From the NCBI RefSeq assembly GCF_900110025.1, contig NZ_FOCE01000006.1, positions 1-64,000 on the forward strand: 64,000 nt of DNA, in the 5' to 3' direction. This document shows, piece by piece, positions 4,622-26,079 of the stretch. The DNA comes from Gemmobacter aquatilis. GTDB taxonomy: Bacteria; Pseudomonadota; Alphaproteobacteria; Rhodobacterales; Rhodobacteraceae. Below the pieces are notes generated by a model that made no database searches, was not told the DNA's origin, and saw only the letters and a program-made list of their open reading frames with translations. The translations under genes were made by a program, and so were the position numbers. Position 1 is the stretch's first letter. Every line of letters starts with the position of its first letter.

Positions 4622-4895
4622 GCCGTTCTTTTTTTCGATTTGAGCGGCGCGCGGCAGGCGTGTGCCATTCCAAAGGTTAAGTGTCAGCGCGGGCGCAATA
4701 TATCACAAAAACGGACACTTACACGGCATAACCGGAAAGTGTCCGGTTAACAGGTCCGGAGAATATCGGCCCGGAGAGAACGCCCGTGCACCTTTCCGGG
4801 CGTGGGCCGGTTAAGAGCCCCTCCCGCATAACCCCCGAAAACAACGGAAAAATCCGGCCGCAGCAGGATCGGGAGAACACTTTCGCTGGGGCAAG

Positions 4896-4911
4896 TGGCG
4901 GAGCCGAAGGG
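4896..4911 (+). repeat. attL: 16-bp copy of the tRNA-Ser 3' end
   Basis: The word tggcggagccgaaggg is identical to 17125-17140, the 3'-terminal 16 nt (including the encoded CCA) of tRNA-Ser(GCT). Flanking bases differ on both sides. Together with an integrase gene next to the intact tRNA, this defines the ends of an integrated element of about 12.2 kb. Confidence 0.92.
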
Positions 4912-4945
4912 TGTGCCAGACATGAGTGAAATCAATCACTTGCGC

Positions 4946-5005
4946 TGTCAAACGGCACAAAACCGTTCCGTTGTTTTCCAAGGGATTTTCTGGCGTTTGT
5001 CAAAC
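4946..5005 (+). promoter_or_regulatory. Candidate integrase arm sites near attL
   Basis: The word TGTCAAAC occurs at 4946-4953 and 4998-5005, 35 and 87 bp inside attL. The same word recurs twice as an inverted pair just inside attR (17053-17060 and 17072-17079). The ten bases caaaccgcct are also shared (5001-5010 and 17078-17087). Short repeats flanking the core are typical of arm-type sites for tyrosine recombinases. Binding is inferred. Confidence 0.5.
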
Positions 5006-5037
5006 CGCCTGCGGGGCCTCAGTGAGAGGACGCGCAA

Positions 5038-7440
5038 ATGGAACTGCGACACGACGATTTCGACGAGATGCTGGGTGGCCCTGAAAAAGTAAGAGCCGCT
5101 GCGGCTGGTCCCCGCAACGGCTCTGAATTCAAACAGGAAAGCATTCCTACCGAAAAAGATACCGCAGCATCGCCTGTTGCGCAAGAAGCGGATGATTTCG
5201 ACGATCTGTTGGGCGCAGCCCCGGTTTTTTGCCCTGATGCACCGATCTGGACGGCGTGGCGCGAAGAGTCGCGTGGCGGGCGCGTCACGAAAGTGCCCTA
5301 TCGCACGACTGTCGATAATTCGGCGTCCGATGACCCATCAACATGGATCACGCGCGCCGAAGCCCGAAATGTAGCCGCACGTCTGAAGACTGACGGGCGT
5401 AAAGGCACTGGGGTGTTCCTTGGCGGTGACACTGATCTTCTCTTGGGCGGCGTTGACCTCGACTCCTGCTATGATCCCGTTACGCGCGTGTTGGAGCCGT
5501 GGGCGCAGGCTGTCGTTGACCGCTTTGCGTCCTATGCTGAGGTCAGCCCCAGCGGGCAAGGCGTGAAAGTGTTCTTCCACTACCGCGCCGACGATCTGGA
5601 ACCGCTGCGGACAGTAATGAAAACCAAATGGTCTAAGGTTTGGTCGCGCGGCACCCATCTGGAAATCGCGCTACATCTGGGCGGGCGCTATTTCGCGGTT
5701 ACGGATCTACGCTTTGCCGGTAGCCCTTGCGCGGTGACTGTCGTTGATCGCGCCACCCTGCTTTGGCTGATTGAGGATGCAGGCCCCGCATTCAAGGGTG
5801 CGAAGGGTAAGGCAGATGGTGACGACAAGGGCCGCGACGAGTCACGTTCAGGTCGCGCATTCAAGGTGGCCGGTGACTGCCGCCGCGCGGGTATGGATCT
5901 GACCGGCTATCGCGCGGAATTGGGTAAAGATCCCGACCTTGCGGAATGGGCGAAGGATGCGCGGCAGGTGAAGCGCGCATGGGAACGGACGCGTCCGACT
6001 GACACCACAGAAGATGACTTTGAGGATCTGGGCGTTGACCTGATGGGCTTCGCTATGACCGAAGACGGCGTAGCACGGGCGTTCACAGAGGTTCACGCAG
6101 ACCGCCTGCGCTTCTGCCATTCGTCAGGCCGCTGGCATGTTTGGACGGGCACCCACTGGCGGAAGGAAGAGACGCGCCTTGCCTTCAACTGGGCGCGTGA
6201 GACGGCGCGCCAGCGCGCCGCCGCTGATCCGTTGTCCAAGGATGCGAAAAACCTTGCAAAAGCTGCCTTTGCATCTGCCGTTGAACGATTTGCCCAAGCT
6301 GATCGCGCATTCGCCGCCACGGCTGACGCATGGGATTCCGACCATTGGCTCTTGGGAACACCTGGCGGCACCGTTGATCTCCGCACGGGTGCGCTGCGGG
6401 ACTCCCGGCAAGAGGAAATGATCACAAAGACAACGGCAGCGGCACCTATTCCGCTGGATTCGTTCGACGCATTGCGGGATTGCCCCCGCTGGCTGGCCTT
6501 CCTCGATTTCGCCACGGGCGGCGATGCCGAAGCGATCCGCTTCCTGCAACAGTGGTTCGGCTACTCTCTGACTGGCGACACGCGGGAAGAGGCGCTGCTT
6601 TTTGTGCATGGTATCGGCGGTAGCGGCAAATCCACCGCGATCAACACCATGGCCGCGCTGCTGGGCGATTACGCCACTGCGGTTGATACAGAGACAATTA
6701 CAGCCCAGAAGCACGGGCGACATTCCACCGAAATCGCCCGCTTGCATGGCGCGCGCATGGCCTATGCAAGTGAGACGGAGGCGGGCCGCGCTTGGGCTGA
6801 GAACCGTATCAAGCAGTTGACGGGCGGCGATACCATGACCGCGCGATTCATGCGGCAGGATGATTTCGAATTTAAGCCACAACTGAAGCTGGTTGTCGTC
6901 GGGAACAACAAGCCAGCCTTCGCAAATGTAGATGGCGCGATCAAACGCCGCTTCAACGTGATGCCCTTTGACCAGAAGCCCGACCAGCCTGACCATGGCC
7001 TGAAGGATGCCTTACGTGAAGAGTTTTCGGGCATCCTGTCATGGGCAACTCAGGGTTGTCTGGATTGGCAGCGCAATGGGCTGATCCGGCCCGCGATCAT
7101 GCGCGAAACGACCGCCGAATACTTAGACGAAATGGACACCTTCACTAACTGGATTGGAGATCGGTGCGAGACTGGCGCGCGATATGCCGCCACGACCGAA
7201 GACCTGTTTGACTCGTGGTCATGGTATGCGCGCCAGAATGGCGAAGAGCCGGGGAACAAGCGTGGTGACTTCCCGCAGCGGATGCGAGAGCGCGGCTTTG
7301 TTCCTGTCAATCGTGCTGCCGGTATTCGTGGCAGGGGATGGAAGGGCCTGCGCATCGCCCCCCAGCCTGATCACAGCGACAATTTCGACGACCTTGGACA
7401 CTCCCAAGTGACGGAGGGTGAGAAGTGCGTAACCCACTGA
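5038..7440 (+). CDS. Primase-helicase (primase/polymerase-like N-terminus, P4/D5-type SF3 helicase C-terminus)
   Basis: This 800-residue replication protein of the element begins with a region resembling bifunctional primase/polymerase domains, with GVDLD and candidate catalytic Asp140 and Asp142. A linker follows, then a D5-type superfamily 3 helicase with Walker A GIGGSGKS at residues 525-532 and a VVVGNNKP motif. It probably primes and unwinds the element's own replication, as the alpha protein does in satellite P4. Unusually, an acidic motif of the type DDFDDLLG occurs four times (near residues 6, 54, 332 and close to the C-terminus) and again at the start of the next protein. ATG 5038 is preceded by GAGAGGA at about eight bases. 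Confidence 0.88.
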   Translation: MELRHDDFDEMLGGPEKVRAAAAGPRNGSEFKQESIPTEKDTAASPVAQEADDFDDLLGAAPVFCPDAPIWTAWREESRGGRVTKVPYRTTVDNSASDDPSTWITRAEARNVAARLKTDGRKGTGVFLGGDTDLLLGGVDLDSCYDPVTRVLEPWAQAVVDRFASYAEVSPSGQGVKVFFHYRADDLEPLRTVMKTKWSKVWSRGTHLEIALHLGGRYFAVTDLRFAGSPCAVTVVDRATLLWLIEDAGPAFKGAKGKADGDDKGRDESRSGRAFKVAGDCRRAGMDLTGYRAELGKDPDLAEWAKDARQVKRAWERTRPTDTTEDDFEDLGVDLMGFAMTEDGVARAFTEVHADRLRFCHSSGRWHVWTGTHWRKEETRLAFNWARETARQRAAADPLSKDAKNLAKAAFASAVERFAQADRAFAATADAWDSDHWLLGTPGGTVDLRTGALRDSRQEEMITKTTAAAPIPLDSFDALRDCPRWLAFLDFATGGDAEAIRFLQQWFGYSLTGDTREEALLFVHGIGGSGKSTAINTMAALLGDYATAVDTETITAQKHGRHSTEIARLHGARMAYASETEAGRAWAENRIKQLTGGDTMTARFMRQDDFEFKPQLKLVVVGNNKPAFANVDGAIKRRFNVMPFDQKPDQPDHGLKDALREEFSGILSWATQGCLDWQRNGLIRPAIMRETTAEYLDEMDTFTNWIGDRCETGARYAATTEDLFDSWSWYARQNGEEPGNKRGDFPQRMRERGFVPVNRAAGIRGRGWKGLRIAPQPDHSDNFDDLGHSQVTEGEKCVTH

Positions 7441-7462
7441 AATCAAACAAAGCGAACAGATT

Positions 7463-7567
7463 GAGTCACATCTGGTCACATCCATTCCGCATGAACGCTC
7501 TTACGCACGCGTATGCGCGCGCGTGCATAGGGCAACTAACCGGAACCGATGTGACTAGATGTGACTC
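7463..7567. repeat. 20-bp inverted repeat with iteron-like ATGTGAC words and an alternating purine-pyrimidine core
   Basis: The arm at 7463-7482 is the reverse complement of 7548-7567 with one mismatch. Each arm holds two ATGTGAC words exactly 10 bp apart: 7465-7471 and 7475-7481 on the minus strand, 7549-7555 and 7559-7565 on the plus strand. The 65-bp centre contains an alternating tract (gcgtatgcgcgcgcgtgcat, 7509-7528). The position between the primase gene and the small terminase gene suits either a replication origin bound by the primase or a cos/pac site bound by TerS. Neither is proven. Confidence 0.75.
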
Positions 7568-7656
7568 GGTTCCTTCCCGCCGCCACCGCCTTGCGGGGTC
7601 CGCTGAGCCGCATGGTATTTCTCTTCACAAGATTTTTCGGAATCGGGAATCCTGCG

Positions 7657-8184
7657 ATGTATGATGATTTCGACGATTTGCTCGGCACAACCGCGCACGA
7701 AAACACACCTGCCCCCCTGCCGATTGAAATGGACGAAAGAGGCATGGCGGCGCTGATGCGGCTTTCTCTGTCGCAAGTTCGCACCAAAGCACGGGAAGGC
7801 TTGTTCGTTCGCAGCGGACGCGGGCGCTATGATGTGGCCGAAAGCCTTGGGCGCTATATCGAGCATCTGCGCTCTGTCGCTTCCCGCTCTGGGGGGCGAC
7901 CGTCTGCTGTCGGTGATGCTGACGACCTACGGGCCGAAAAGCTGCGGCTCACCCGCGCTCAGGCCGACAAGGAGGAAACCCGCGTCGCCCGTGAGCGTGG
8001 CGAACTGGTGCCCGCCGATGCCGTCACCCGTGAATGGGCATCCCTGCTGCGCGATCTGCGCAATGCGCTGCTGGCAGTGCCTTCCCGCTGTGGCGCAACG
8101 CTGGGGCATCTGACCGCCACCGACATTGCGACGATAGACCACGAGATCCGCACAGCCTTGGAAGGTGTAGCCCATGGGAATTGA
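7657..8184 (+). CDS. Small terminase subunit-like protein (Nu1-type)
   Basis: This 175-residue protein starts MYDDFDDLLG and then shows a helix-turn-helix-like region (ALMRLSLSQVRTKAREG). A glycine-rich, helical middle (DDLRAEKLRLTRAQADKEE) and a C-terminal helical part follow. This is the layout of Nu1-type small terminases, which recognise the packaging site and hand DNA to TerL. An upstream in-frame start at 7561 exists, but ATG 7657 with gggaat nine bases before it gives a product beginning with the motif shared with the primase. Its end overlaps the terL start by 11 bp, supporting translational coupling and the TerS assignment. Sequence similarity alone is weak. Confidence 0.72.
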   Translation: MYDDFDDLLGTTAHENTPAPLPIEMDERGMAALMRLSLSQVRTKAREGLFVRSGRGRYDVAESLGRYIEHLRSVASRSGGRPSAVGDADDLRAEKLRLTRAQADKEETRVARERGELVPADAVTREWASLLRDLRNALLAVPSRCGATLGHLTATDIATIDHEIRTALEGVAHGN

Positions 8185-9931
8185 GATTGTCCGCCGCAAT
8201 GCCCTGAAAGCCCTGCTACCCCCCGCCAATGTGCCCCTTGCCGATTGGATCGAGTCCACGATCTACATTCCCGCCAGCGCGTCAGCCTTGCCAGGCAGAA
8301 TGCAGCTTTGGCCGTTCCAGCGCGGCTGGTGCGAGGCAATCGAAAATCCCGAGATCGAACGTATTACAATTCTGAAAGGAGCAAGGATCGGTTACACGCA
8401 ATGGCTCAGCGCCACGATTGCGCATTTTGTGGCAAACGCCCCCGCTCCGATCATCGCATTGCAACCCACTGCCGACGATGCAAGGGATTTCAGCGTTGAA
8501 CTGGAAGGCCTCTTCGAAGCCTCGCCCGATCTGCGCGGACTCATGTCTGACGATGCGGACGAGTCCGGGCGCAGCACAATGCTGGCGCGGCGCTTTCCGG
8601 GCGGCAGTCTCAAATTTCTTGCTGCGAAGTCGCCCCGCAACCTGCGCCGCCATACTGCGCGACTTCTCGCAATGGATGAAATCGACGGATACGAAATCAC
8701 CCAAGAAGGCGATCCGATCAAACTGGCGGAAATGCGAACCCTTACATTCCAGGACCGCAAAATTTTGGCTGGCTCGACTCCCGTGTTCGATTTCGGGCCG
8801 ATTTCGCGCCTATATTCCGAAAGCGACAAGCGGGTTTATGAATGCCGCTGCCCGTCATGCGGTGAACTCGGTGAAATCACTTGGGCGTCGATCCAATGGA
8901 AAGAAGGCGATCCAGATTCCGCCCATTGGGTTTGCCCTGTCGCGGGCTGTGTCGTGGAAGAGCGGTTCAAGCCGCAGATGGTCGCACAAGGCCGCTGGCG
9001 GGCGACTGCGCCCGAGGTGAAGGGTCATGCGGGCTTTGCCGTGAATTGCCTGATCAGCCCGCACCATAACGCCCGATGGGGCAAGCTGGCTGCGGAATTT
9101 CTGCTGGCAAAGCGCGCGCCCGAGACGCTGCAAGTGTTCACAAACACCATTTTGGGCCAGCCGTGGAAGGTCGAGGGCGAAGATTTCGACGAACACGAAC
9201 TTTTCGCCCGGCGTGAACCCTTCAGCTTGGACAAGCTACCGCCCGAAATCCTCTGGCTGACCGCAGGAGTCGACTGTCAGGACGACCGGCTGGAAATCGT
9301 CATCATGGGCCACACGGAAACCGATTGGCTGATCCTCGATCACCGCGTTTTCTGGGGGCCAATCGACGGCGAAACCGTCTGGCAGGAGGTGGATTCCCTG
9401 CTGAAAGAGACCTGGCAGCACCCGAACGGCGGCACGATCAGGATTGACGCTTGCGCGGTCGACTCGTCTGACGGCGGGCACCTCGAAACCGTCATGGGCT
9501 TCTGTCGCCCCCGTTTCGGGCGGCGTGTCGTGCCGATCAAAGGTGTTGCGGGCTTCTCACGCGCGCTTTTCCAGCGTTCCGCGACCAAGGGCCAGCATCT
9601 ATGGCTTGTGGGTGTCGATGCCGCGAAATCCGCGCTCTTCACCCGCGTTGGGCGTAATCAGGGCATCCGCTTTGGTGAAGCCCTGCCGCCCATCTTCTAT
9701 GAGCAATTCGCATCTGAGCGGCGCGTGGTGCGCTATGTGCGGGGCAAGCCGGAAGCCCGGTTCGAGCGGATCAAGGGAAAGCGCGCCGAGACACTTGACG
9801 CAAGCGTGTATGCGGTGGCCGTGCGCAACCTTATCGGGCAGAGTGTTGACAGGCGGGCCGAGGAACTGGCGAGTCAGGCCGCACCCAAGCGTCCGCCTGT
9901 CGTGATTAAAAGCAAATGGCTTGGAGGGTGA
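8174..9931 (+). CDS. Large terminase subunit (GpA family)
   Basis: This 585-residue packaging motor and headful/cos nuclease is of the phage lambda GpA type. The N-terminal ATPase has a Walker A-like KGARIGYT (residues 68-75) and a Walker B-like LLAMDEID. A zinc-binding pair, CRCPSCGE and later CPVAGC, lies in the middle. The C-terminal nuclease has acidic residues in GVDCQDDRLE and DACAVDSSDGGH. Length is close to the family norm (about 600). The gene overlaps terS and is followed directly by a small DUF2158 gene. An intact terminase of its own distinguishes this element from satellites that only redirect a helper's terminase. Confidence 0.93.
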   Translation: MGIEIVRRNALKALLPPANVPLADWIESTIYIPASASALPGRMQLWPFQRGWCEAIENPEIERITILKGARIGYTQWLSATIAHFVANAPAPIIALQPTADDARDFSVELEGLFEASPDLRGLMSDDADESGRSTMLARRFPGGSLKFLAAKSPRNLRRHTARLLAMDEIDGYEITQEGDPIKLAEMRTLTFQDRKILAGSTPVFDFGPISRLYSESDKRVYECRCPSCGELGEITWASIQWKEGDPDSAHWVCPVAGCVVEERFKPQMVAQGRWRATAPEVKGHAGFAVNCLISPHHNARWGKLAAEFLLAKRAPETLQVFTNTILGQPWKVEGEDFDEHELFARREPFSLDKLPPEILWLTAGVDCQDDRLEIVIMGHTETDWLILDHRVFWGPIDGETVWQEVDSLLKETWQHPNGGTIRIDACAVDSSDGGHLETVMGFCRPRFGRRVVPIKGVAGFSRALFQRSATKGQHLWLVGVDAAKSALFTRVGRNQGIRFGEALPPIFYEQFASERRVVRYVRGKPEARFERIKGKRAETLDASVYAVAVRNLIGQSVDRRAEELASQAAPKRPPVVIKSKWLGG

Positions 9932-9936
9932 TTAAA

Positions 9937-10134
9937 GTGAGCAATTTCAGTGTCGGCGATACTGTGGTTCCGAAAGGACGCATTTCCCCGAGGATGACCG
10001 TATCTGAAATCAATGGCGATAAAGCGCTTTGCCGGTGGCTTGATACAAAGCAAACGCAACACAAGGATTGGTTTTCGTTTGCTGAAATTTCGCCGCCGCC
10101 GCCCCCAGTCGGTCCAATGCGCGTCACATTCTAG
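9937..10134 (+). CDS. DUF2158-family small protein
   Basis: This 65-residue protein starts with FSVGDTVVPKG and continues MTVSEINGDKALCRWLD, the small beta-barrel pattern of DUF2158 (YodC-like) proteins, whose role is unknown. A proline run (SPPPPPVGP) forms the tail. GTG 9937 is chosen because GGAGG at 9923-9927 lies at the right distance. An ATG at 9916 would overlap the large terminase gene and lacks such a site. It is probably co-transcribed with the terminase genes. Confidence 0.6.
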   Translation: MSNFSVGDTVVPKGRISPRMTVSEINGDKALCRWLDTKQTQHKDWFSFAEISPPPPPVGPMRVTF

Positions 10135-10177
10135 TAGTAGACGTGGCGGCGGATCGACCATCGCCACTTATTCAAGG

Positions 10178-10657
10178 TCACTGTTTCCCGATCAGCGCCA
10201 GAACTTCAGCGAACTGATCGGGAGAAATCTTCCCCACAAATGAGCCTTTTGCCCCGATAATCTTGAACTCAATGCCCGTTTGTGCAGCTTGTTTGAACTG
10301 TGCTTCGGTCAGAACAAAGAGACCTTTCTCGGTTGTTATACAACCTCCGGCTCCCCCGCACATTCCAACATCGGTAGTAGTGTTCTTATATGGAAATTTT
10401 TTTCCGAAACTCCATACCTCTTGAGGGTGTATCCAGCCGTAATTAGAGATTAGCGTTTCCACGCCATATCCAACATCTCTATTGTAGAAAGCCCGGGCCT
10501 TTACGAAGTTCAAAAGGCCTGAGTAGGCATCAACAGTGCGTGAGAATACAACCGTCTGATTTGTATGCTCATCATAGACAACTTGCGGAGTGGTTTCGAC
10601 ACAAGCAGTTAATGCGGTTGCAATGGTGCCAGCCATTAGGAATTTTTTTAGACGCAT
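10178..10657 (-). CDS. Predicted lipoprotein, cargo gene of the element
   Basis: This 159-residue protein has a basic start, a hydrophobic segment and the lipobox LTAC, giving Cys19 as the lipidation site. It should therefore be exported and anchored in the cell envelope. The mature part has no recognised domain; it contains a pair of cysteines in MCGGAGGC and a C-terminal half with a KSF/GKI beta pattern. The gene runs against the packaging genes and is visibly richer in A and T than its neighbours, suggesting separate acquisition. Such single genes often alter the host surface or block other phages, but no function can be read from the sequence. Confidence 0.75.
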   Translation of the reverse strand: MRLKKFLMAGTIATALTACVETTPQVVYDEHTNQTVVFSRTVDAYSGLLNFVKARAFYNRDVGYGVETLISNYGWIHPQEVWSFGKKFPYKNTTTDVGMCGGAGGCITTEKGLFVLTEAQFKQAAQTGIEFKIIGAKGSFVGKISPDQFAEVLALIGKQ

Positions 10658-10779
10658 TTTTTCCTAGTAATTGATCTGTTTCAAAAAGTTTGCGTCTTCC
10701 GATGATTCTTGTCGTGTCGCGGCAGACTGCGCTGATAGCATGTGGGCAATCGCACTTCTACGCAATGGCTGTTTGCGTG

Positions 10780-11070
10780 TCATCGCCGAATCTCGACATA
10801 GGGCATAGCGCCGTCCAGCAGCGCGCTCCCCACGCTAGCCGCAGTTGCTGCAGCATCATCGTCGTCAATGTCTGTCACTTCCCGGCTGGATGCATAGAAC
10901 GGCATGGACATGAACTTGTCGCCATTCCGGCCCACAACAAGGCACGGATGCCAGCCTTCAACTGAGCGCCCACGGAACTGCACAAGGCGTTCCTCTGCCG
11001 TGGCAGGCCGTAGCCACCACTGCCGCTCTGGGAAGCGTTTTGCAAAGCGGCGATCAATCTTGGCTGTCAT
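10780..11070 (-). CDS. Hypothetical protein, 96 residues
   Basis: The product begins MTAKIDRRFAKRFPERQWW and ends in an acidic stretch followed by VGSALLDGAMPYVEIRR. I do not recognise a family. A longer frame begins at 11262, but the ATG at 11070 is preceded by AGAGGA at eight bases and starts a compositionally normal protein. The upstream extension is low-complexity. It sits beside the lipoprotein gene on the same strand, so the two may form the accessory module of the element. The basic N-terminal half with tryptophans could bind nucleic acid; this is only a guess. Confidence 0.6.
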   Translation of the reverse strand: MTAKIDRRFAKRFPERQWWLRPATAEERLVQFRGRSVEGWHPCLVVGRNGDKFMSMPFYASSREVTDIDDDDAAATAASVGSALLDGAMPYVEIRR

Positions 11071-11334
11071 TGGGCGGTCCTCTGTTGTCCTTATATAAAA
11101 CGACAAGGCCCCCGATCCACTGCCCCCGTAAAAGCCGGCTCGGGCGCGCGCAACCGCCAGGTGTTCGGTGGAGGACGAGACCGCCCGGCAGTGTCTTGGT
11201 GGCGGGGCCGATCCGTAGACCGCCCCCGCCCGTTCTTGCCAATCGAACTTTGGTGCAGTCATTGTAGTGGACCCTGGTTGACTTTACAACTCATATTAGA
11301 GTAATAGAGGCAAGACCGCCACGGAGTAGCCGAC

Positions 11335-11871
11335 ATGACCTTGAAAACCCTTGCCGAGATTGCCGCAGGCTTCGCCCGTATCGACGGAATCTCTGACGAA
11401 GATCACCCTGCCTTTGACAAATTCCTGCGCAACCTGACGCAACGCCATTTCCTGCCGCCGACCGAACAAGTCGGGCGGGCATTCCTCTATGATCCCGCCG
11501 CCGCTGTCACGATCAGGCTGGCCCAGATCGCCGCTGAATTCGGTCTACCCCGCACCACGATTGACGCTCTAGCGCGTTGGTTGAGTGGTTCAGGTGAGCG
11601 CAAGAAGCGCATTTCAGACAGTATGCTGAAAGGCGTGACATACGCCGAAGAGGCGCTTGACCGCGTGACAGCGGGCGAGACCTTTGCCGTCCATGTCATC
11701 ATGTGCGTTGACCGTTCGGTGATCGTGAAGCCCGACTGGGATCACCCCCGCAGCGAACACGCCGAAAATGCTCTTCGCCTGATCGGCAAAGGCCCGAAAG
11801 CGGAAATCGCCCGGTTCAGTCTGCCTGCATCCGCACTGATCGCGGAAATTCTGCCTTTCCTCAAAGGCTGA
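11335..11871 (+). CDS. Hypothetical protein between terminase and portal genes
   Basis: This 178-residue protein has no recognised family. It has a helical N-terminus (LAEIAAGFARIDGISDEDHPAF) and a helix-turn-helix-like segment LAQIAAEFGLPRTTIDALARWL at about residues 62-83. Its position six bases before the portal ATG implies co-translation with the head genes. It could be a DNA-binding regulator of the late genes or a scaffold-type factor. GGAG lies before the ATG at 11335. Confidence 0.7.
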   Translation: MTLKTLAEIAAGFARIDGISDEDHPAFDKFLRNLTQRHFLPPTEQVGRAFLYDPAAAVTIRLAQIAAEFGLPRTTIDALARWLSGSGERKKRISDSMLKGVTYAEEALDRVTAGETFAVHVIMCVDRSVIVKPDWDHPRSEHAENALRLIGKGPKAEIARFSLPASALIAEILPFLKG

Positions 11872-11876
11872 TCCGC

Positions 11877-13217
11877 ATGGGCCTGCTTGACCTTTTCCGC
11901 CGCCAGACTGCCCCGGCCCAGACACGCCGCTATGATGCGGCATCTGGTAGCCCGCGCCGGTTCAACGGTGGGGCGAGCCGTTTCGCGGGTTATGGCGCGG
12001 AAACGGTGGCGGCAGGCCCCAGCATCCGCAGTCGCGCCCGCCATGCTGCCGAGAACAACAGTCTCGCCGCCAGCGCAATCGGCGCATGGGTGGATGCAGC
12101 TATCGGCCCCGGCATAATGCCAACGAGCCAGCACCCTGACCCAGCCGTTCGGGTGATCCTGGACTCCTATTTCGCCAAATGGGCCAAGCGCGCCGATGCG
12201 TCGGGAAGGACTGACTTCTGGGGCCTGCAAGCCGCTGCGGTTCGCTCTGAGCGGATCGACGGCGAAAGCATGTTGCTATGGCGCGGTGCCAAGCTGCTGC
12301 ATCTGCCTGTTGAGCAAATTGCCTATCTAACCACAGACTCGGCGGTTGCCGGGGTTGAACTGGACGACGACGCAGGGGTAACGGGCTATTGGATTCACCC
12401 TTCCCGCCCTGATGGCCTGAACGGGCAATACGCACCACCAATCTTTGTGCCCGCCGAAGATGCACTTCACATCTTCCAGCCTTCAGGGCCGGGACAGGTG
12501 CGAGGCGTTAGCGCCCTTGCCCCTGTATTGCTGGCATTGTCGGAACTGGACGCAACCGAGGATGCGTTGATCACGCAAACGAAGATTGCCGCCTTGCTGT
12601 CGGTGATCCTGACCAATCAGAACGATCTGACGGGCGATGATCCATTGCAGGATGGCCAGGGACTTGAACCGGGCGCGGTTCTTCGCCTTCCGGGAAACTA
12701 CACAGTCACCACCGTCGCGCCGCAGCAATCGCAACAAGCCGGTGAGTTTCTGGCGCACCTTACCCGGCGTATCGCCGCAGGCGTGGGGGTGCCCGTGCAT
12801 CTCGTTGATGGGAACCTGAACCAAGCGAACTACAGTTCCTTGCGGGCCGCTCTGGTCTCGTTCCGCCAGCGCATCGAGCGTTATCAGTTTCAATGCCTTG
12901 TCCCGGCATTCCTCGATCCTGTTTGGCGGCGTGTCGCAACGCTGGCCGCGCTGGAACATGGCCTCGATGTAAACGACGATCTGTTTGCAGTGGAGCATAT
13001 CCCGCCAGCCCAACCTTGGGTTGATCCAGCCAAAGATGCGGAAGCCACACTAACCCTGATGGGGGCCGGTCTCATGTCACGCCGTCAGGCCGTGGCAAGC
13101 CTTGGCTACAGCATCGAAAAGCTGGACGCGGAAATCGCGGCAGATCGTCAGCGGGAGTCCGCCATGGGCCTCAGCTTCATTCAACAGTCAGTTGAACAAA
13201 AGGGCAGTAAAGCATGA
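11877..13217 (+). CDS. Portal protein (lambda GpB-like)
   Basis: This 446-residue protein begins with the hydrophobic GLLDLFRR and continues RSRARHAAENNSLAASAIGAWVDAAIGPGI, the typical entry of lambda-family portals. FVPAEDALHIFQPSGPGQVRG and YSSLRAALVSFRQRIE follow, both conserved in the family. As the twelve-subunit ring at one vertex it docks the terminase and lets DNA in and out. It is somewhat shorter than lambda GpB (533). Its end overlaps the next gene by four bases (ATGA), as expected for stoichiometric coupling with the capsid protein. Confidence 0.93.
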   Translation: MGLLDLFRRQTAPAQTRRYDAASGSPRRFNGGASRFAGYGAETVAAGPSIRSRARHAAENNSLAASAIGAWVDAAIGPGIMPTSQHPDPAVRVILDSYFAKWAKRADASGRTDFWGLQAAAVRSERIDGESMLLWRGAKLLHLPVEQIAYLTTDSAVAGVELDDDAGVTGYWIHPSRPDGLNGQYAPPIFVPAEDALHIFQPSGPGQVRGVSALAPVLLALSELDATEDALITQTKIAALLSVILTNQNDLTGDDPLQDGQGLEPGAVLRLPGNYTVTTVAPQQSQQAGEFLAHLTRRIAAGVGVPVHLVDGNLNQANYSSLRAALVSFRQRIERYQFQCLVPAFLDPVWRRVATLAALEHGLDVNDDLFAVEHIPPAQPWVDPAKDAEATLTLMGAGLMSRRQAVASLGYSIEKLDAEIAADRQRESAMGLSFIQQSVEQKGSKA

Positions 13218-15010
13218 ACAAACCGCTTCACCGTCTGACCGGAAATCCAGCAAAAGCCACGATCATCACCGCGCCCAAACCGATTGATACCACGGCAGGC
13301 GAACGCCATTTCCGCGCCATGCCACGCGTGGGCGATCTGGACGATAAGAGCCGAGAATTCCGGGCTGTGGTCGCCACCTCGACTCCGGTGCGGAGGCGTG
13401 ACGCCAAAGGGCCATACCTCGAAATCCTCGATCCTATCGGGCTTGAATACCGCGATAGCGACGACTTCCCGTTGCTGACCGATCATCGCCAAGCCGCCCG
13501 TGAAACTGTCGGGCGCGCATCCGGCCTTGTGGTCGACGGCCCCAGCGTCAGCGCCACCCTGCGCCTTGGGCAAGCTGACGACATAGAACCGATTTTCCAG
13601 CGCGTGAAAGATGGCGTCATTCGCCACGTTTCAGCCGGATACCAAGTTCTCGCATGGCGCGAGACCCGAGACCCTGACGGAACCCGAGTGAAGACGGCAA
13701 CGCGCTGGCGCTTGCTTGAAATCTCTCTGGTGCCGGTGCCTGCCGACCAAAACGCAATCATTCAACGGAGTGGCGCAATGCCCTTTGACTTTGAAACACG
13801 CGCGGCTCTTATCGACACGCTGCGCTCTGCCTGCAATCTGCCCGACACTTGGGGCGACGATTTGGCCGAAGAGGCTGTGACGGAAGAGCAAGTGCGCGAA
13901 GCCGCACGGGAAGCGATGCTGACCCGGCAGGCCCCGCAAATCCGCATCCGCCGCGATCACACTGACCCGGCCCAGATCCAGACCCGCGCTGCCGATGCTC
14001 TGGCCTTCCGCATGGCGGGCGGTGATCTGCCCGAGGCCAGCCGCGAATTCGTCAACATGTCGATGCGCGATCTTGCCGCCGATTGTCTGACCCGTTCCGG
14101 CGTTTCCGTTCGCGGCATGTCGGCGGATGAGGTGTTCAGCCGCGCACATGGCACCTCTGATTTCCCGCTGCTTGTCAGCAACGCCATGGGCAAGGTCGCC
14201 GCTCAGGCATACCAAGCCGCCGAAAGCCCGCTGAAGGCTCTGGCGCGTCAGCGGACGCTGCCGAACTTCAAAGAGTCCACCTCGATCCGCCTGGGCGAGA
14301 TGGGGCGGCTTCAGGAGATGACCGAACACGGCGAATTCAAGCATACCAGCCGCGCCGAAGCTGGCGAGAGCATGGCGCTGAAAACCTTCGGTCGCGCAAT
14401 CAACGTCAGCCGGAAGCTGCTGATCGACGATGATCTGGGCCTGCTGGGCGATATGACTGCCGCCATGGGTCAGGCTGCCGCCCAGACCGAAGCTGAAGAA
14501 ATGGTGGCCCTGCTGTCGGGCAACTCCGTTCTCTCGGACGGCAATCCCGTCTTCCACGCATCGCGTGGCAACCTCGCCACGGGCGCGCCCTCTGAACTGG
14601 ACGAAGGCGCACTGTCGGCAGCGCGTCAGCACATGCGCACCGTGAAGGGGCTGGACGGGAAAACGATCATCGACGCCAAACCGAAATTCCTGATCGTCGG
14701 GCCGGAACTCGAAACCCGCGCCGAAAAGCTGCTGGCCTCGATCTACGCCACCACGACCGACGATGTAGCCGCTTTCGCGGGCAAGCTGTCGCATGTCGTG
14801 GAACCGCGCCTTGCCGGTCCAGTCTGGTATCTGCTGGCTGATCCCGCCCGCGTGGCCTCTCTGCAATACGGCTATCTGTCGGCGGCTCAGGGCGTCCAGA
14901 TCCAGCGACAGGAGGCTTGGGATACGCTGGGCCTGAAGTATCGCGCATGGCTGGACTTCGGCTGCGGCTGGCTTGACTGGCGCGGCGCTTACCGTGCGGC
15001 AGGCGCGTGA
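13214..15010 (+). CDS. Prohead protease-major capsid protein fusion
   Basis: This 598-residue protein has two parts. Residues 30-165 resemble an HK97-type (S78) prohead protease, with a candidate catalytic His91 in LTDHRQAA and Ser140 in RHVSAGY. From about residue 190 there is a charged helical linker resembling a scaffold. From about residue 300 to the end it matches Mu gpT-like major head proteins (NFKESTSIRLGEMGRLQEM; FLIVGPELETRAEKLL). Known phages with this fusion release the capsid part by self-cleavage. This makes protease, scaffold and shell one open frame and fits a compact satellite genome. It is coupled to portal (four-base overlap) and to the gpW-like gene (one-base overlap). Confidence 0.9.
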   Translation: MNKPLHRLTGNPAKATIITAPKPIDTTAGERHFRAMPRVGDLDDKSREFRAVVATSTPVRRRDAKGPYLEILDPIGLEYRDSDDFPLLTDHRQAARETVGRASGLVVDGPSVSATLRLGQADDIEPIFQRVKDGVIRHVSAGYQVLAWRETRDPDGTRVKTATRWRLLEISLVPVPADQNAIIQRSGAMPFDFETRAALIDTLRSACNLPDTWGDDLAEEAVTEEQVREAAREAMLTRQAPQIRIRRDHTDPAQIQTRAADALAFRMAGGDLPEASREFVNMSMRDLAADCLTRSGVSVRGMSADEVFSRAHGTSDFPLLVSNAMGKVAAQAYQAAESPLKALARQRTLPNFKESTSIRLGEMGRLQEMTEHGEFKHTSRAEAGESMALKTFGRAINVSRKLLIDDDLGLLGDMTAAMGQAAAQTEAEEMVALLSGNSVLSDGNPVFHASRGNLATGAPSELDEGALSAARQHMRTVKGLDGKTIIDAKPKFLIVGPELETRAEKLLASIYATTTDDVAAFAGKLSHVVEPRLAGPVWYLLADPARVASLQYGYLSAAQGVQIQRQEAWDTLGLKYRAWLDFGCGWLDWRGAYRAAGA

Positions 15011-15225
15011 TGACCAGCGTCACCAAACTGCGGGAATACCGTGACCAGCTACAGGATGCCCGCTTCTCGGGCGTTCGCACCTTCCGCGACTCCAATGGTG
15101 AGGAAGTCACCTATCGGTCGCAAGGCGAGATCGAGCGGGCCATTGCCGCGATCGACTCGGAAATCCGCGCCCTGTCGCAGAAGCGCATGGGCCTTGTTTA
15201 CCTGCAAACCTCGAAAGGCTTGTGA
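15010..15225 (+). CDS. gpW-like head-tail joining protein
   Basis: This 71-residue, strongly charged, helical protein starts MTSVTKLREYRDQLQDARFSG and continues with VRTFRDSNGEEVTYRSQGEIERAI. The helix, beta-hairpin, helix layout and length are those of lambda gpW, which sits at the portal and completes the head for tail attachment. ATG 15010 overlaps the capsid stop codon by one base; a GTG at 15007 would add one residue. This is the only tail-related function seen, and it marks the place where helper tails would be accepted. Confidence 0.78.
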   Translation: MTSVTKLREYRDQLQDARFSGVRTFRDSNGEEVTYRSQGEIERAIAAIDSEIRALSQKRMGLVYLQTSKGL

Positions 15226-15226
15226 G

Positions 15227-15553
15227 ATGAAAAACTATATCCAGAAGGGCGACACGCTCACCATTCCGGCCCCGGCGGCTGTCGCTTCCGGCTTCCCGGT
15301 GATCGCGGGCGCAATTGTCGGCATTGCATCGGGTGGCGCTGCCAGCGGTGCCCCCGTCGATGTGGCAACCGTGGGCGTGTTCGAACTGCCCAAGGTGGCT
15401 GCCGATAACTTCGTAGTCGGTGCCGCCGTCTATTGGGATGTTACTGCTGAACTGGCGACCAGCACCGCGACCGACAACACCAAACTGGGCGTGGCTGTCG
15501 CCACCGCTGCCGCCTCGACCGCTTCCGTCAATGTCCGCCTGAGCGGCTTCTAA
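15227..15553 (+). CDS. DUF2190 capsid cement/decoration protein
   Basis: This 108-residue protein starts MKNYIQKGDTLTIPAPAAVA and continues with VIAGAIVGIASGGAASGAPV and VGVFELPKVA. This beta-rich, alanine- and glycine-rich pattern is that of DUF2190 proteins, which stabilise phage heads. ATG 15227 follows the gpW-like stop codon by one base. An upstream in-frame start at 15041 would overlap that gene and is not used here. Confidence 0.82.
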   Translation: MKNYIQKGDTLTIPAPAAVASGFPVIAGAIVGIASGGAASGAPVDVATVGVFELPKVAADNFVVGAAVYWDVTAELATSTATDNTKLGVAVATAAASTASVNVRLSGF

Positions 15554-15566
15554 GGAGGGCATCACC

Positions 15567-15755
15567 ATGGCGAAGATGTTCGCAAAGACACAGATCATCA
15601 TGCCGGATGATACGGTGATCCCCCGTGGCAAGGTATTCGACGCCACGCCGTTGCAGGCCAAGCAGTTCGATCACCTGAACGCAGCCCGGGCTGCAACAGA
15701 AGCCGAGATTGGGAAGGCTACTGCGGCTGAAGCTGCAAAGAACGGTCAAGCCTGA
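15567..15755 (+). CDS. Small hypothetical protein of the head gene cluster
   Basis: This 62-residue protein begins MAKMFAKTQIIMPDDTVIPRG and has a helical, alanine-rich tail. Similar small proteins are common next to DUF2190 genes in phages, but I cannot assign a function. GGAGGG precedes the ATG at about eight bases, and the gene is 13 bp downstream of the DUF2190 gene. Confidence 0.65.
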   Translation: MAKMFAKTQIIMPDDTVIPRGKVFDATPLQAKQFDHLNAARAATEAEIGKATAAEAAKNGQA

Positions 15756-15759
15756 TCAG

Positions 15760-16005
15760 ATGCAGACTCAAGTTCGCCCCTCTTCACCGATTGCACCGCC
15801 GACTCGGCGCGGGCTGTCGCGCGGAGAGGCGGCGGCTTACATCGGAGTCAGCCCTTCGACCTTCGACAAGATGGTGCAATCTGGCGAAATGCCCGGCCCA
15901 AAGCGCGTGTATGCCCGGACAATCTGGGATGTGCGCGCTTTGGATCTGGCGTTTGATGCCCTTCCGGGTGACGATTCAGCCCCCGAAACCAATGACTGGG
16001 ACTGA
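15760..16005 (+). CDS. Excisionase-like winged-helix DNA-binding protein
   Basis: This 81-residue protein has the pattern LSRGEAAAYIGVSPSTFDKMVQ followed by a short wing region (PGPKRVYARTIWDVRALD), typical of AlpA/Xis-type proteins of the MerR fold. It lies just upstream of the integrase gene, so control of excision is the likely role. ATG 15760 is used because the in-frame extension upstream overlaps the preceding gene. Confidence 0.75.
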   Translation: MQTQVRPSSPIAPPTRRGLSRGEAAAYIGVSPSTFDKMVQSGEMPGPKRVYARTIWDVRALDLAFDALPGDDSAPETNDWD

Positions 16006-16009
16006 AAGG

Positions 16010-17044
16010 ATGAAACTCTTACGCAAACCGCCCCGATACTGTCAGGGCTTCGAAGATCGTCACGGCACCTTCCGCTGGTATTACCGCCGCCCTGGCTTCC
16101 CCCGAAGCGCGCTTCCCGGCCTGCCATGGACGCCTGAATTTATGGCGGCATATGAGAAAGCCGCCAATGGCGAGAAGCTGGAAATCGGCGTGAAACAAAC
16201 CATTGCGGGCAGTGTATCCGCGCTTGTGGTCAGCTACTACAAGACCAGCGATTTCACCGGCCTGAGCGACTCCACCAAGACGACATATCGCGGCATCATC
16301 GAACGCTTCCGGGCAGAACATGGTGACAAGAGAGTCGCCCATCTGGAACGCAAGCACCTGCAAAAGCTTGTCAGCGACAAGGCGGCAACGCCCGCCGCTG
16401 CGAACAATATGCTGCGCATGGTGCATCTGCTGATGCGTCACGCTGTCGAATTGGGCTGGCGCGGTGACGATCCGACGCAAGGCGTTCGCAAGGTGAAGAA
16501 CAAGACGGCGGGCTTTCTCACATGGGAAGAGGATCACATTGCCACCTTTGAAGAACACCACAAGCCGGGCACCCGCGCGCATCTGGCGCTTATGCTTCTG
16601 CTCTACACAGGGCAGCGGCGCAGCGACGTGGTGCGCATGGGGCGGCAGCATGTCCGCAAAGGCATTCTGTCGATCACGCAACAGAAGACGGGGCAGGACG
16701 TTCATATCCCGTTGCATGATGATCTACGGGCAGTTCTCGACGCGCTGCCCCTCGATAATCTGAGTTTCCTAATGACCGCTCAGGGGCGACCCTTTACCCC
16801 ACCCGGATTCACGAACTGGTTCCGCGACATGGTGCGCGACGCTGGCTTGCCGGATGGGCTGTCACCGCATGGGCTGCGCAAGGCGACTTGCCGCAGGCTG
16901 GCGGAAGCGGGCTGCACACCGCACCAAATTATGGCTATCTCGGGCCATAAGTCGCTTGCCGAAGTGACCCGTTACACGGTCGCGGCAGGCCGAAAAGACC
17001 TCGCTGCGCAGGCAATGCTTGCGCTCGGGAAGAAAGAAGGGTGA
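16010..17044 (+). CDS. int: Tyrosine integrase of the element
   Basis: This 344-residue site-specific recombinase has the catalytic set Arg203 (YTGQRRSD), Lys226, His287-x-x-Arg290 (HGLR), His313 (SGHKS) and Tyr322 (TRYT). A SAM-like core-binding domain covers about residues 65-160. It should recombine the 16-bp tRNA-Ser core. The gene ends 80 bp before the intact tRNA, the usual integrase-next-to-tRNA layout. Two in-frame ATGs at 15992 and 16010 are possible; neither has a well-spaced ribosome site, and coupling to the excisionase-like gene, five bases upstream, is likely. Confidence 0.93.
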   Translation: MKLLRKPPRYCQGFEDRHGTFRWYYRRPGFPRSALPGLPWTPEFMAAYEKAANGEKLEIGVKQTIAGSVSALVVSYYKTSDFTGLSDSTKTTYRGIIERFRAEHGDKRVAHLERKHLQKLVSDKAATPAAANNMLRMVHLLMRHAVELGWRGDDPTQGVRKVKNKTAGFLTWEEDHIATFEEHHKPGTRAHLALMLLLYTGQRRSDVVRMGRQHVRKGILSITQQKTGQDVHIPLHDDLRAVLDALPLDNLSFLMTAQGRPFTPPGFTNWFRDMVRDAGLPDGLSPHGLRKATCRRLAEAGCTPHQIMAISGHKSLAEVTRYTVAAGRKDLAAQAMLALGKKEG

Positions 17045-17052
17045 CTATCAAC

Positions 17053-17079
17053 TGTCAAACCTTCTAAGATAGTTTGACA
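17053..17079 (+). promoter_or_regulatory. Inverted TGTCAAAC pair inside attR
   Basis: TGTCAAAC at 17053-17060 and GTTTGACA at 17072-17079 form an 8-bp inverted repeat with an 11-nt spacer, directly after the integrase stop codon. The same word lies inside attL. It could be a pair of integrase arm sites or a short transcript-ending hairpin for int; it lacks a T run. Confidence 0.5.
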
Positions 17080-17124
17080 AACCGCCTCGCAAGCGGCTGA
17101 CAAATAAGAGAAATTTTAAGGTAA

Positions 17125-17140
17125 TGGCGGAGCCGAAGGG
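17125..17140 (+). repeat. attR core (3' end of tRNA-Ser)
   Basis: The 16 bases are identical to attL at 4896-4911. They cover the encoded CCA, the discriminator and part of the acceptor and T arms of the tRNA, so integration leaves the tRNA gene whole. Confidence 0.92.
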
Positions 17141-17214
17141 ATTCGAACCCTCGAGACGGTTCCCCGTCTGCACCCTTAGCAGGGGTGTGCCTTCGACCAC
17201 TCGGCCACAGCTCC
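17125..17214 (-). tRNA. tRNA-Ser (anticodon GCT)
   Basis: Read on the minus strand, it starts GGAGCTG, which pairs with CGGCTCC before G73 and an encoded CCA. The anticodon loop CTGCTAA gives GCT. A long variable arm (CAGACGGGGAACCGTCTC) is present, as in all bacterial tRNA-Ser, and the T loop is TTCGAAT. It is 90 nt long. The 3' end is the integration site of the phage-like element. Confidence 0.96.
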
Positions 17215-17420: not shown

Positions 17421-18714
17421 TGAACCGCGCCGGGTTTGCCGGAGGCTTATTTCGGTTGGTTACGCGGCCATGTCTTCAGTTTCCAGAGCGGCGTAGAAGT
17501 CTGCCTCTGCTTCCGCCGGAGGGATATTCCCGATCGGCTTGAGGAGGCCGCGGTTGTTGAACCAGTCCACCCATTCGAGGGTTGCCTATTCCACGGCTTC
17601 GAAGCTCTCGGCGGTGGATGACCTCTGCCTTGAACAAGCCATTGATCGTCTCTGCGAGAGCGTTGTCGCAACTGTCTCCGACGCTGCCAACCGAGGGCTC
17701 GATCCCGGCTTCCGCCAAGCGCTCAGTGTAACGAATGGACAGGTATTGCGAGCCCTGTCGCTCTGGTGGACCAGACCCATGCCCTTTCCCGGAGGGCGAT
17801 CATGCACTGCCTGTTCCAGGGCATCGAGCACGAACCCTGCATGGGCCGAGGTGCTGAACCGCCTGCCTACGATCCGTCGAGCATAGGCGTCGATGACGAA
17901 GGCGACAGAGACGAACCCCTTCCAGGTGGCGACAGAGGTGAAATCCGACACCCACAGCATGTTCGGTGTCGGAACGCGGAACTGACGGCTCACCTTGTCC
18001 AGCGGACAGGGAGCTTTCTTGTCCGGTACGGCTTGCTGCGGATAATGCCCGGAATCCCCATGCTCTTCATCAGCCCTGCCACCGTGCATCGCACGACATA
18101 TAAGCCCTCGCGGCCAAGCTGCCGCCAGATCTTCCGGACGCCATAAACCCGCCAGTTCTCTTCAAAAACCCGAAGGATCTCGGGGCGCAGAGCCTTATCC
18201 CGGCGGGCGCGGTCTGACCGCCGCGACGGATCGGCTCGCATGGCCAGATGATCATAACAGGTGGACGGGCGATCGGCAGAACCGCGCAGATCGGCTCGAC
18301 CCCGTGCGCATCACGATGCGCATCGATGAAACCCACCATCACTTCGACCGGCGGTCGAGCTCCGCCATCGCAAAATATGCGCGGGCCTGGCGAAGGATCT
18401 CGTTTGCCTGGCGCAACTCGCGGTTCTCGCGTTCCAAAGCCTTCATGCAGCCGGCCATCTCGGTCGGGATGCCCGCACGCTTGCCACTTTCGACCTCGGC
18501 CTTCTTCACTCACTCGTTCAGGGTATGGCCGAACAGCCAATCTTCGCCGCAATCAACACGACCGACTGCCAACGCAAGCCATGCTGCCCCTCATTGTCGA
18601 AGACCAGCCGCACCGCACGTTCACGCACTTCAGGGGAAAACTTGTTCGTCGTCTTGCTCATGATGCTCCAGCTTACTCACGACCGAGAGCCTCCGGTAAA
18701 CCCGGCGCGGTTCA
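17421..18714 (-). mobile_element. Decayed IS3-family insertion sequence
   Basis: The 1,294-bp element has 26-bp terminal inverted repeats (17421-17446 and 18689-18714) that start TGAACCGCGCCGGG and differ at one base. Inside are OrfA and OrfB remnants on the minus strand. Flanking bases do not show a 3- to 4-bp duplication, so neighbouring sequence has changed or the element arose by deletion. Confidence 0.88.
17460..18661 (-). pseudogene. IS3-family transposase OrfA/OrfB remnants
   Basis: OrfA begins at 18661 with [20 protein letters not shown] and loses its frame after about 45 residues, with stop codons in the middle. It resumes as a leucine-zipper-like part (ALERENRELRQANEILRQA). OrfB pieces follow in different frames: VFEENWRVYGVRKIWRQL, then the DDE domain with WVSDFTSVATW, then LAETINGLFKAE with the catalytic Glu. 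The C-terminus LETEDMAA ends at 17460. At least three frame changes make it inactive. Confidence 0.88.
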
Positions 18715-18895
18715 ATGCGACAGTCGCTAAAGCGGTCGCAGCCGGTGCTTTCTGCGCAGCGCTGTCGCCCACTTATCTCGAGGCTCACGGCCACGGGCTT
18801 GGCGCAATGGCAGATGATGCAAGCGCCGGCGGCTATCGCGTTGCGGCTGGGAAGCAGCCTCGCAAGTGCGATGCGCCTTGCACTCAAGGGCCGGC

Positions 18896-24973: not shown

Positions 24974-26079
24974 GGTTCACTCTTTTCGGCAAGGCGAAGC
25001 ACCTGCTCCACCAATCTGTCGGTCGCATCGGGGCGGCCCTGCGAAAGGGCTTGGGCCGCCATGGCCTGCGCGGCCTGCGGATGCGCAAGCACGGCGGCCA
25101 TTTGCGCGCTGAGCGCGGCGGGGTCAAGGGCGGATTCGGCGATGAGGGTCGCGGCACCTGCCGCAACGAGACCGCGGGCATTGGCGGTCTGGTGGTCGGC
25201 GGTGGCGGCGGCGAAGGGGATCAGGATCGACGGGCGCCCGATCACCGAGATATCTGCGATGGACGAAGCGCCAGAACGCGATACCACAAGCTGCGCTTCT
25301 GACAGACGGCGCGGGATGTCGGTGAAAAACGGCTGCACATCCGCCTCGATCCCGGCAGCGTCATAGGCGGCCACCACGCGGTCAAGGTCTTCGGCGCGGG
25401 CCTGATGGGCGATGCGCAGATGCGGGCGCAGGGTTTCGGGCAGTGCTGCGATGGCGGCGGGCACCACATCGGACAGGATGCGCGCGCCCTGGCTGCCGCC
25501 GATGACCACAACGCTCATCGGGTAATCCCCTGGCGGAATATAGGGGGCACCCGCCCGCTCCAGCACAGCGGCGCGCACCGGGTTGCCGGTATGGATACCC
25601 TGCACACCCTGCGGCAAGGCGGTCGGCCAGGTGCCGCAGCACACGGCATCGACACGCTTGGCGAAGATCTGGTTCACCCGCCCCAGCACGCCATTCTGTT
25701 CGTGGATCATCCGCGGCAGGCGCAGCAGTGTGGCCGCCGTCAGCGCCGGGATGGATGGATAGCCGCCAAAACCCACCACCACCGCAGGTCGGTCGCCCCG
25801 CATCGCCGCCACGGCCGCCAGCACGCCGCCCGCGATACGAAACGGCACCAGCGCCTTGGCTGCGATGCCGCCGCGCGCGAAGGTGGCCGAGGCGACCTGT
25901 TCCACCAGCACTTCTTTCGGAAAGCCCCCGGCATAGCGCGCACCGCGCGCATCGGTGGACAGTTTCACCCGCCAGCCGCGCGCGATCATCGCCTCGGCCA
26001 GCGCCTGTGCCGGGAACATATGCCCACCCGTGCCCCCGGCTGCAATCAGCAGGAGCGGTGTCTGCGGCGCGGCCCCCAT
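24970..26079 (-). CDS. murG: Undecaprenyldiphospho-muramoylpentapeptide beta-N-acetylglucosaminyltransferase
   Basis: This 369-residue GT28 enzyme makes lipid II by adding GlcNAc to lipid I at the inner face of the membrane. The glycine-rich N-terminal loop [15 protein letters not shown] and the C-terminal [13 protein letters not shown] (UDP-GlcNAc site) are visible. It lies one base after ftsW and overlaps murC by four bases, so the three are coupled. Confidence 0.97.

Follow-up and report, generated by a model that had tools for sequence, protein, structure and literature searches.

The first 64,000 nucleotides of contig NZ_FOCE01000006.1 of Gemmobacter aquatilis, referred to here as the window, contain an element of 12,229 bp (from repeat start to repeat start, 4896 to 17125) that carries phage head and packaging genes together with a primase-helicase and a tyrosine integrase. 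Its gene content, boundaries and relatives make it highly probable that this element is a capsid-forming phage satellite, which depends on a helper phage for head closure, neck, tail and lysis.

Head and packaging genes in tRNA-Ser(GCT)

The element is bounded by two perfect copies of the 16-bp direct repeat TGGCGGAGCCGAAGGG (4896-4911 and 17125-17140), the right one lying in a tRNA-Ser(GCT) gene, in agreement with the first-pass annotation of this DNA, which had described a 12.2-kb element with intact att repeats. A third repeat-like site in the window, at 25203, has two mismatches (0.14 matches at no more than two mismatches are expected by chance), and an Rfam search returned the tRNA alone above threshold. 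The left flank (4749-4895, about 150 bp) is kept in related genomes and directly abuts an intact tRNA-Ser in three of seven loci (L193, L194 and L195 of L191-L197), with the junction falling at the repeat. Because flank and intact tRNA meet directly in these three loci, the uninterrupted chromosome consists of left flank plus tRNA. In L192, L196 and L197 the flank is followed by the repeat start and other DNA, with no tRNA found, and L191 has no flank copy. Of the 61 relatives searched, about 15 contain the flank sequence, some genomes in multiple copies; it gave no match in Rfam, for which the searched part starts at 4500.

Genes were called from Pfam and PHROGs profile searches of the annotated open reading frames (ORFs) of the window. 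From left to right, the element and its integration site comprise the following features:

4896-4911, no strand: attL-side copy of the 16-bp direct repeat (exact repeat; the left 150 bp abut intact tRNA-Ser in L193-L195)
5038-7440, plus strand: D5/DUF5906-type primase-helicase of 800 amino acids (aa) (PF08706, 6e-27; PF19263, 1.6e-11; phrog_6088 DNA primase, 7e-107)
7561-8184, plus strand: TerS, terminase small subunit (phrog_57, 1.1e-27; Phage_Nu1 weak; possible start at an internal ATG near 7657)
8174-9931, plus strand: TerL, terminase large subunit, GpA type (PF05876, 7e-75; PF20454, 4e-73; phrog_15, 2e-166)
9916-10134, plus strand: 72-aa ORF of phrog_3261, a family with no function given (PHROG 1e-5)
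10178-10657, minus strand: 159-aa ORF with a lipobox-like start, in the accessory slot between terL and portal (no Pfam match at E 0.05)
10780-11070, minus strand: 96-aa ORF divergent to the MerR-type gene, with relatives in L005, L006 and L041 (no Pfam match at E 0.05)
11335-11871, plus strand: MerR-type regulator candidate, 178 aa (predicted fold like CvkR; no Pfam or PHROG match)
11877-13217, plus strand: portal, lambda family (PF05136, 1e-66)
13214-15010, plus strand: S78 protease fused to the major capsid protein (PF25209, 2e-45; PF04586, 4e-8; phrog_4523, 1.5e-147)
15010-15225, plus strand: head-tail adaptor Ad1, gpW-like (phrog_2545, 4e-9; in Pfam only Osmo_CC, no gpW match)
15227-15553, plus strand: DUF2190, phage cement (decoration) protein (PF09956, 5.6e-26)
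15567-15755, plus strand: 62-aa ORF, kept in close relatives (no PHROG match)
15760-16005, plus strand: excisionase-like (xis-like) small helix-turn-helix protein, ORF from 15709 (HTH_17, 9e-4, below the Pfam cut-off; same-place relatives in many elements)
16010-17044, plus strand: tyrosine integrase (PF00589, 7e-20; phrog_1, 1.6e-43)
17125-17140, no strand: attR-side repeat within the tRNA-Ser 3' end (exact repeat and tRNA call)
17125-17214, minus strand: tRNA-Ser(GCT), the integration site (the right repeat copy is its 3' end)

The gene set that had been read from the sequence alone (integrase, xis-like gene, primase-helicase, TerS, TerL, portal, protease-capsid fusion, gpW-like joiner and DUF2190) was recovered in full by these searches. 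Tail, lysis and HNH families had no Pfam or PHROG match among the element's annotated ORFs, which upholds the proposed lack of tail and lysis genes. Two details were revised: the joiner is followed by DUF2190 and hence is not the last structural gene, and there is a regulator candidate at 11335-11871. Structure modelling predicts that this 178-aa gene encodes a MerR-type protein with a CvkR-like fold, which makes it a candidate regulator. CvkR is the MerR-type repressor of type V-K CRISPR transposons; the 178-aa protein shares about 10% sequence identity with it, belongs to a different kind of element and has a predicted function.

A promoter scan gave sites no more numerous than in shuffles. 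At the start of the 159-aa ORF, LTAC is what we take to be a lipobox-like motif. The N-termini of the primase (5053-5076 and 5191-5214) and of TerS (7663-7686) have a common acidic DDFDDLLG-like motif, which may be a shared docking peptide. A pattern derived from it occurred 14 times in 1.53 million residues of satellite-locus ORFs. The nine matches listed for distinct loci all lie in primase or TerS proteins encoded by the window, L015 and L005, the other five presumably being from duplicate loci, and degenerate forms begin several other TerS proteins.

Relatives and the search for tail genes

A capsid-alignment scan of genome contigs gave 41 loci, all in Rhodobacterales except those in Martelella, Corticibacterium and Acuticoccus (host orders were assigned mostly by organism name and tree labels, with taxonomy looked up for two). 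Two IMG/VR scans added further loci, many of them contigs of 11-13 kb. Scans and fetched family genomes together amounted to 94 loci, reduced to 73 distinct ones at 97% capsid DNA identity, whose named hosts are mostly Rhodobacterales. A tRNA lies at the expected place in 48 of the 73, and a tRNA-anchored direct repeat of 14-51 bp was detected in 31. These anchored elements measure 9,851-13,673 bp from repeat to repeat (median 12,094) and use tRNAs of ten types (Ser, Arg, Tyr, Met, Phe, Cys, Thr, Trp, Glu and Pro); Gly, Lys and Gln tRNAs occur at loci without a detected repeat. With L093, both ends are defined in 32 elements of 9.9-13.7 kb, and the similarly sized relatives for which the first-pass annotation had proposed a search thus turned out to be numerous.

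In the 32 bounded elements, the genes follow the order replication gene(s), TerS, TerL, a variable slot, the MerR-type gene or an ORF of similar size, portal, capsid, gpW, DUF2190, optionally xis, and integrase. Departures from this order were an integrase at the opposite end (L042) and split capsid or portal ORFs (L034, L053 and L038); TerS, gpW or DUF2190 remained uncalled in L093, L045, L038 and L105. In several of the 73 relatives the gpW-like gene also matches the gpW profile from tailed phages (5e-5 and weaker). Given 73 relatives, a near-constant order and size, and many tRNA sites, the tail-less element is not a one-off deletion. A phylum-wide search of 398 genomes found full-length capsid matches confined to Alphaproteobacteria, three of them new (G981, G1041 and G858, loci not fetched).

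The slot between TerL and portal differs in content between elements. In the window it holds the lipoprotein-like ORF and small ORFs, in L053 (5806-7494) a 563-aa GmrSD-type restriction protein (PF03235, 4e-37; PF07510, 8e-11; PADLOC Orf5, 3e-160), and in L098 a protein with a PADLOC match to PDC-M36A (2.5e-11). A PADLOC scan of the other eight accessory proteins returned nothing for seven and a weak mad8 match for one (L045, replication side).

Capsid matches in 394 family genomes fell into three classes, namely full-length matches of at least 440 bits, matches over residues ~190-597 that scored about 200-280 bits, and a remainder of fragments or weaker matches. The first class comprised 49 places, the window included, in 42 of the 394 genomes (hand count). 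No tail module was found in the 40 of these places that were fetched, 20 of which were not deduplicated against the 73 distinct loci. The second class served as control: in all 20 fetched loci, genes of gpFII-like and minor-tail type follow downstream, and gpW lies between TerL and portal in 19. In the nearest tailed class, in which gpW has this same position, similarity to the capsid fusion is confined to its C-terminal two thirds.

Contig fragments make up many of the 73 loci, and the absence of tails was fully tested only in the 32 bounded elements. Inside the 73 loci, a set of 17 neck and tail profiles derived from tailed relatives (five being single-sequence profiles) gave nothing except in L110, described below; in the window, a weak tape-measure match (3e-5) lies at 18525-18899, outside the element. 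The 71 accessory ORFs of the bounded elements matched 21 Pfam families (the complete list), none of them tail or HNH, and no tail family was among the best 25 of their 63 PHROG families. Head closure of the gpFII profile was found in none of the 73 loci and in one of 20 further loci (L170), and closure genes of another family may be present. Among the relatives examined, no tailed one of this kind was found at the same tRNA site, and none with the same genes and a full tail at the same locus, which had been named as grounds for abandoning the satellite reading. A capsid tree was made from 65 of the 73 loci, the other eight having short or broken capsid ORFs; in it, a single branch (SH-aLRT 91) separates the satellite capsids from 32 capsids of tailed phages or prophages.

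Selection, module exchange and exceptions

The capsid genes are under purifying selection, with ratios of nonsynonymous to synonymous substitution rates (dN/dS) of 0.06-0.19 in six of six pairs. Of four TerL pairs with finite dS, three gave 0.07-0.11 (window-L015, 0.08; window-L004, 0.07) and the fourth, window-L005, in which TerL is 45% identical, gave 0.34. For the integrase, values were 0.12 in window-L015, 0.09 in window-L004, and 0.43 in L025-L050, where the integrase is swapped. The 178-aa gene gave 0.5-0.9 in pairs at or near saturation, which is hence little informative.

Satellite modules swap, and the family is a recombining alphaproteobacterial lineage. The window and L004 are 91% identical in TerL, 81% in capsid and 38% in portal. 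Among 56 pairs with a capsid identity of at least 0.80, median identities were 0.92 for TerL (34 pairs), 0.86 for portal (53), 0.83 for gpW (56), 0.84 for DUF2190 (54), 0.57 for integrase (31) and 0.58 for xis (12). The MerR-type gene reached a median of 0.13 in 32 pairs at this capsid threshold, 29 of them below 0.5 (identities come from one MAFFT alignment per gene with a few partial ORFs, and values for the most divergent gene are rough). Exchange of this candidate switch may serve helper matching or escape from shared immunity. Rhodovulum L025 (Rhodobacterales) and Acuticoccus L050 (Hyphomicrobiales) are 95% identical in capsid and 97% in gpW, and this near-identity in different orders indicates recent cross-order transfer.

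Several observations weigh against the satellite reading. L110, a damaged locus near tRNA-Met, has a truncated satellite portal with fragments of tube, chaperone and tape-measure genes fused upstream of it (8697-10480 when the locus is read in reversed orientation) and is a prophage-satellite recombinant or remnant. L170 is satellite-type and has its own gpFII-type attachment gene between TerS and TerL (14344-14676, minus strand; PF05354, 1e-16). In a class-wide search of 385 genomes, three places outside the family exceeded 470 bits (L208, L209 and L210) and two were intermediate (L211 and L212). Within the fetched stretch, none of the former three showed a tail module; L208 matches gpFII weakly (2e-4), and L209 has TerL located after DUF2190. 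Both intermediate loci have the order capsid-gpW-DUF2190. In L211 (8611-12240), from another alphaproteobacterial family, the satellite-type head module is followed immediately by genes for an 857-aa tape-measure protein and a minor tail protein, no tail tube being recognised, and its capsid is nested in the satellite clade (100/91). In this capsid tree, made from a hand-thinned set, the clade of 49 satellites plus L211 is supported at 88/86 only, and keeping the satellites together apart from L211 was not rejected (approximately unbiased test, p 0.118). The TerL of L211 is unrelated to that of the satellites. L212 has a weak distal-tail match (1.5e-4) and a capsid that groups with phages (99/95). 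L211 and L212 therefore indicate that heads have been transferred between satellites and tailed elements and that the order with gpW after the capsid is not exclusive to satellites. The 59 satellite rows of a TerL tree require two changes, so that in this sample one or more terminase exchanges with the tailed set have taken place. As to the switch, the MerR fold match past the DNA-binding half depends mainly on one solved structure.

Proposed life cycle, possible helper and relation to known systems

In the life cycle that we propose for the satellite, its own tyrosine integrase would place it in tRNA-Ser(GCT), between the boundaries described above. The CvkR-fold MerR-type protein, encoded just upstream of the portal, probably silences the element and lifts this silencing once a helper phage is present. 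Excision would involve the xis-like protein and replication the D5 primase-helicase. The element would build its own head from portal, protease-capsid fusion, DUF2190 and Ad1 adaptor, and its GpA-type terminase would package the genome of about 12 kb. Because the element encodes no recognisable closure, neck, tail or lysis genes, a helper would have to supply them; a phage whose neck is of the lambda type (Ad1-gpFII) is the likeliest candidate.

Where tailed phages carry a head of this type, they combine an Ad1 adaptor with a gpFII-like attachment gene, as RcBaka does. Satellite-type and RcBaka-type capsids occur together in 11 genomes versus 4.8 expected (42 x 45 / 394; one-sided Fisher p 0.004), which is a lead only as an indication of the helper, since the 42 and 45 genomes were hand-picked (at least 440 bits and about 200 bits or more, respectively) with three candidates per genome, and kinship and genome size were uncontrolled. 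A helper within the G. aquatilis genome was rejected, its only intact lambda-family portal being the element's own. A 12.7-kb contig of the same genome (C8, L160) carries portal, protease-capsid, HNH, Neck1, head closure, TerS and TerL genes, with an 805-aa tape-measure protein directly after TerL. Its module differs from the element's head, and it is a partial prophage or another unusual element and at best a partial helper candidate. The genome also has two decayed head-gene fragments of the same family, at C25:301451 (L056, near tRNA-Ser(GGA)) and C10:617601 (L057, beside tRNA-Lys(TTT)), which are signs of earlier invasions.

Among other explanations, true descent from the capsid-forming phage-inducible chromosomal islands (cf-PICIs) holds up best and is nevertheless unlikely. 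The outline content is shared (PMC10690885): like the cf-PICIs (EcCIEDL933), which are integrated and about 12-14 kb long, our element has its own integrase, primase, TerS, TerL, portal, protease, capsid and connector and no tail genes, and it is flanked by att repeats. An HNH endonuclease is counted among the cf-PICI packaging genes (PMC10690885), head closure and HNH are described in one cf-PICI-class element, and 900 published cf-PICI capsids are gathered under PF05065 (both PMC13230959). In contrast, we found no HNH endonuclease in the annotated window ORFs or among the 71 accessory ORFs and no closure gene, and the window capsid, fused to the S78 protease, matches PF25209, PF10124 and PF04586 only. 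We therefore do not file the element as a cf-PICI; head closure and a PF05065 capsid are typical of described cf-PICIs rather than stated requirements. The earlier verdict of a cf-PICI-like satellite rather than a deleted prophage thus stands for its way of working and its recurrence, and is doubtful as a family label. The element probably belongs to a separate alphaproteobacterial lineage of capsid-forming, tail-borrowing satellites, distinct from published cf-PICIs. The main doubt on novelty is that one of the three separate capsid radiations among cf-PICIs (PMC11389934) could be this lineage, which is set apart here on the basis of published descriptions of cf-PICIs. One E. coli cf-PICI capsid is reported to cluster with the capsid of the Rhodobacter gene transfer agent (PMC12846349).

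Particles that work tail-free, or with tails borrowed from the gene transfer agent of the host, are improbable. The element has no tail genes, the RcBaka tail includes a protein annotated as GTA TIM barrel-like, and gene transfer agents are common in Rhodobacterales (PMC9836097). Against this, the adaptor is of the Ad1/gpW kind, as in tailed phages. DNA delivery from such heads normally requires a tail. Even less credible is a loss of tail and lysis genes from a prophage of this strain: the decayed head fragments in the same genome would fit such a loss, whereas the tail-less architecture at many tRNA sites, purifying selection on the capsid genes and a gene order unlike that of the tailed relatives examined (gpW position) argue against it. 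Neither a tailed relative at the same locus, among those examined, nor decay of the element's own head genes was found, and recurrence and gene order lead us to reject a deletion. A head module domesticated for the host, for which purifying selection could speak, is hardly conceivable in view of the integrase, xis-like gene, primase and att sites, which are marks of a mobile element, the patchy presence (42 of 394 family genomes at the 440-bit threshold) and near-identical copies across orders.

A separate family in about one in nine sampled family genomes (42 of 394) would suggest that head-building combined with tail-borrowing evolved more than once. If true, it would offer a non-enteric model of chimeric particles, in which the neck proteins that determine tail compatibility could be sought, and the exchanged MerR-type gene makes helper sensing testable. 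Such elements may often pass as incomplete prophages, since many are viral contigs of 11-13 kb in IMG/VR. No paper on capsid-forming satellites in Rhodobacterales was among the matches listed in our literature searches. Capsid-forming satellites are known mainly from Enterobacteriaceae, Pasteurella, Morganellaceae and several Firmicutes, and the cf-PICI host list in the available part of that source lacks Alphaproteobacteria (PMC10803314).

With regard to regulation, an Stl-like regulator is named for a cf-PISP (PMC13230959), whereas our element has the MerR/CvkR-like candidate. MulchRoom and MiniFlayer, satellites of Streptomyces phages, resemble it in having their own terminase, portal, capsid and adaptor, and the MulchRoom tail is thought to be helper-derived; they differ in having no primase, in their direct terminal repeats and in their virulent helpers (PMC10690885). 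RcBaka-type phages and prophages of Rhodobacteraceae have homologous TerL, portal, capsid domain of the fusion, DUF2190 and Ad1. Unlike the element, they carry neck and tail genes and have gpW between TerL and portal; their capsids are about 33-35% identical to that of the element over the matched part. Taken together, we consider it somewhat probable that a phage with a protease-capsid fusion gave rise to these satellites, separately from the cf-PICIs, as a lineage that stops at the Ad1 adaptor, leaves closure and everything beyond it to the helper, exchanges its CvkR-like MerR switch and moves between orders.

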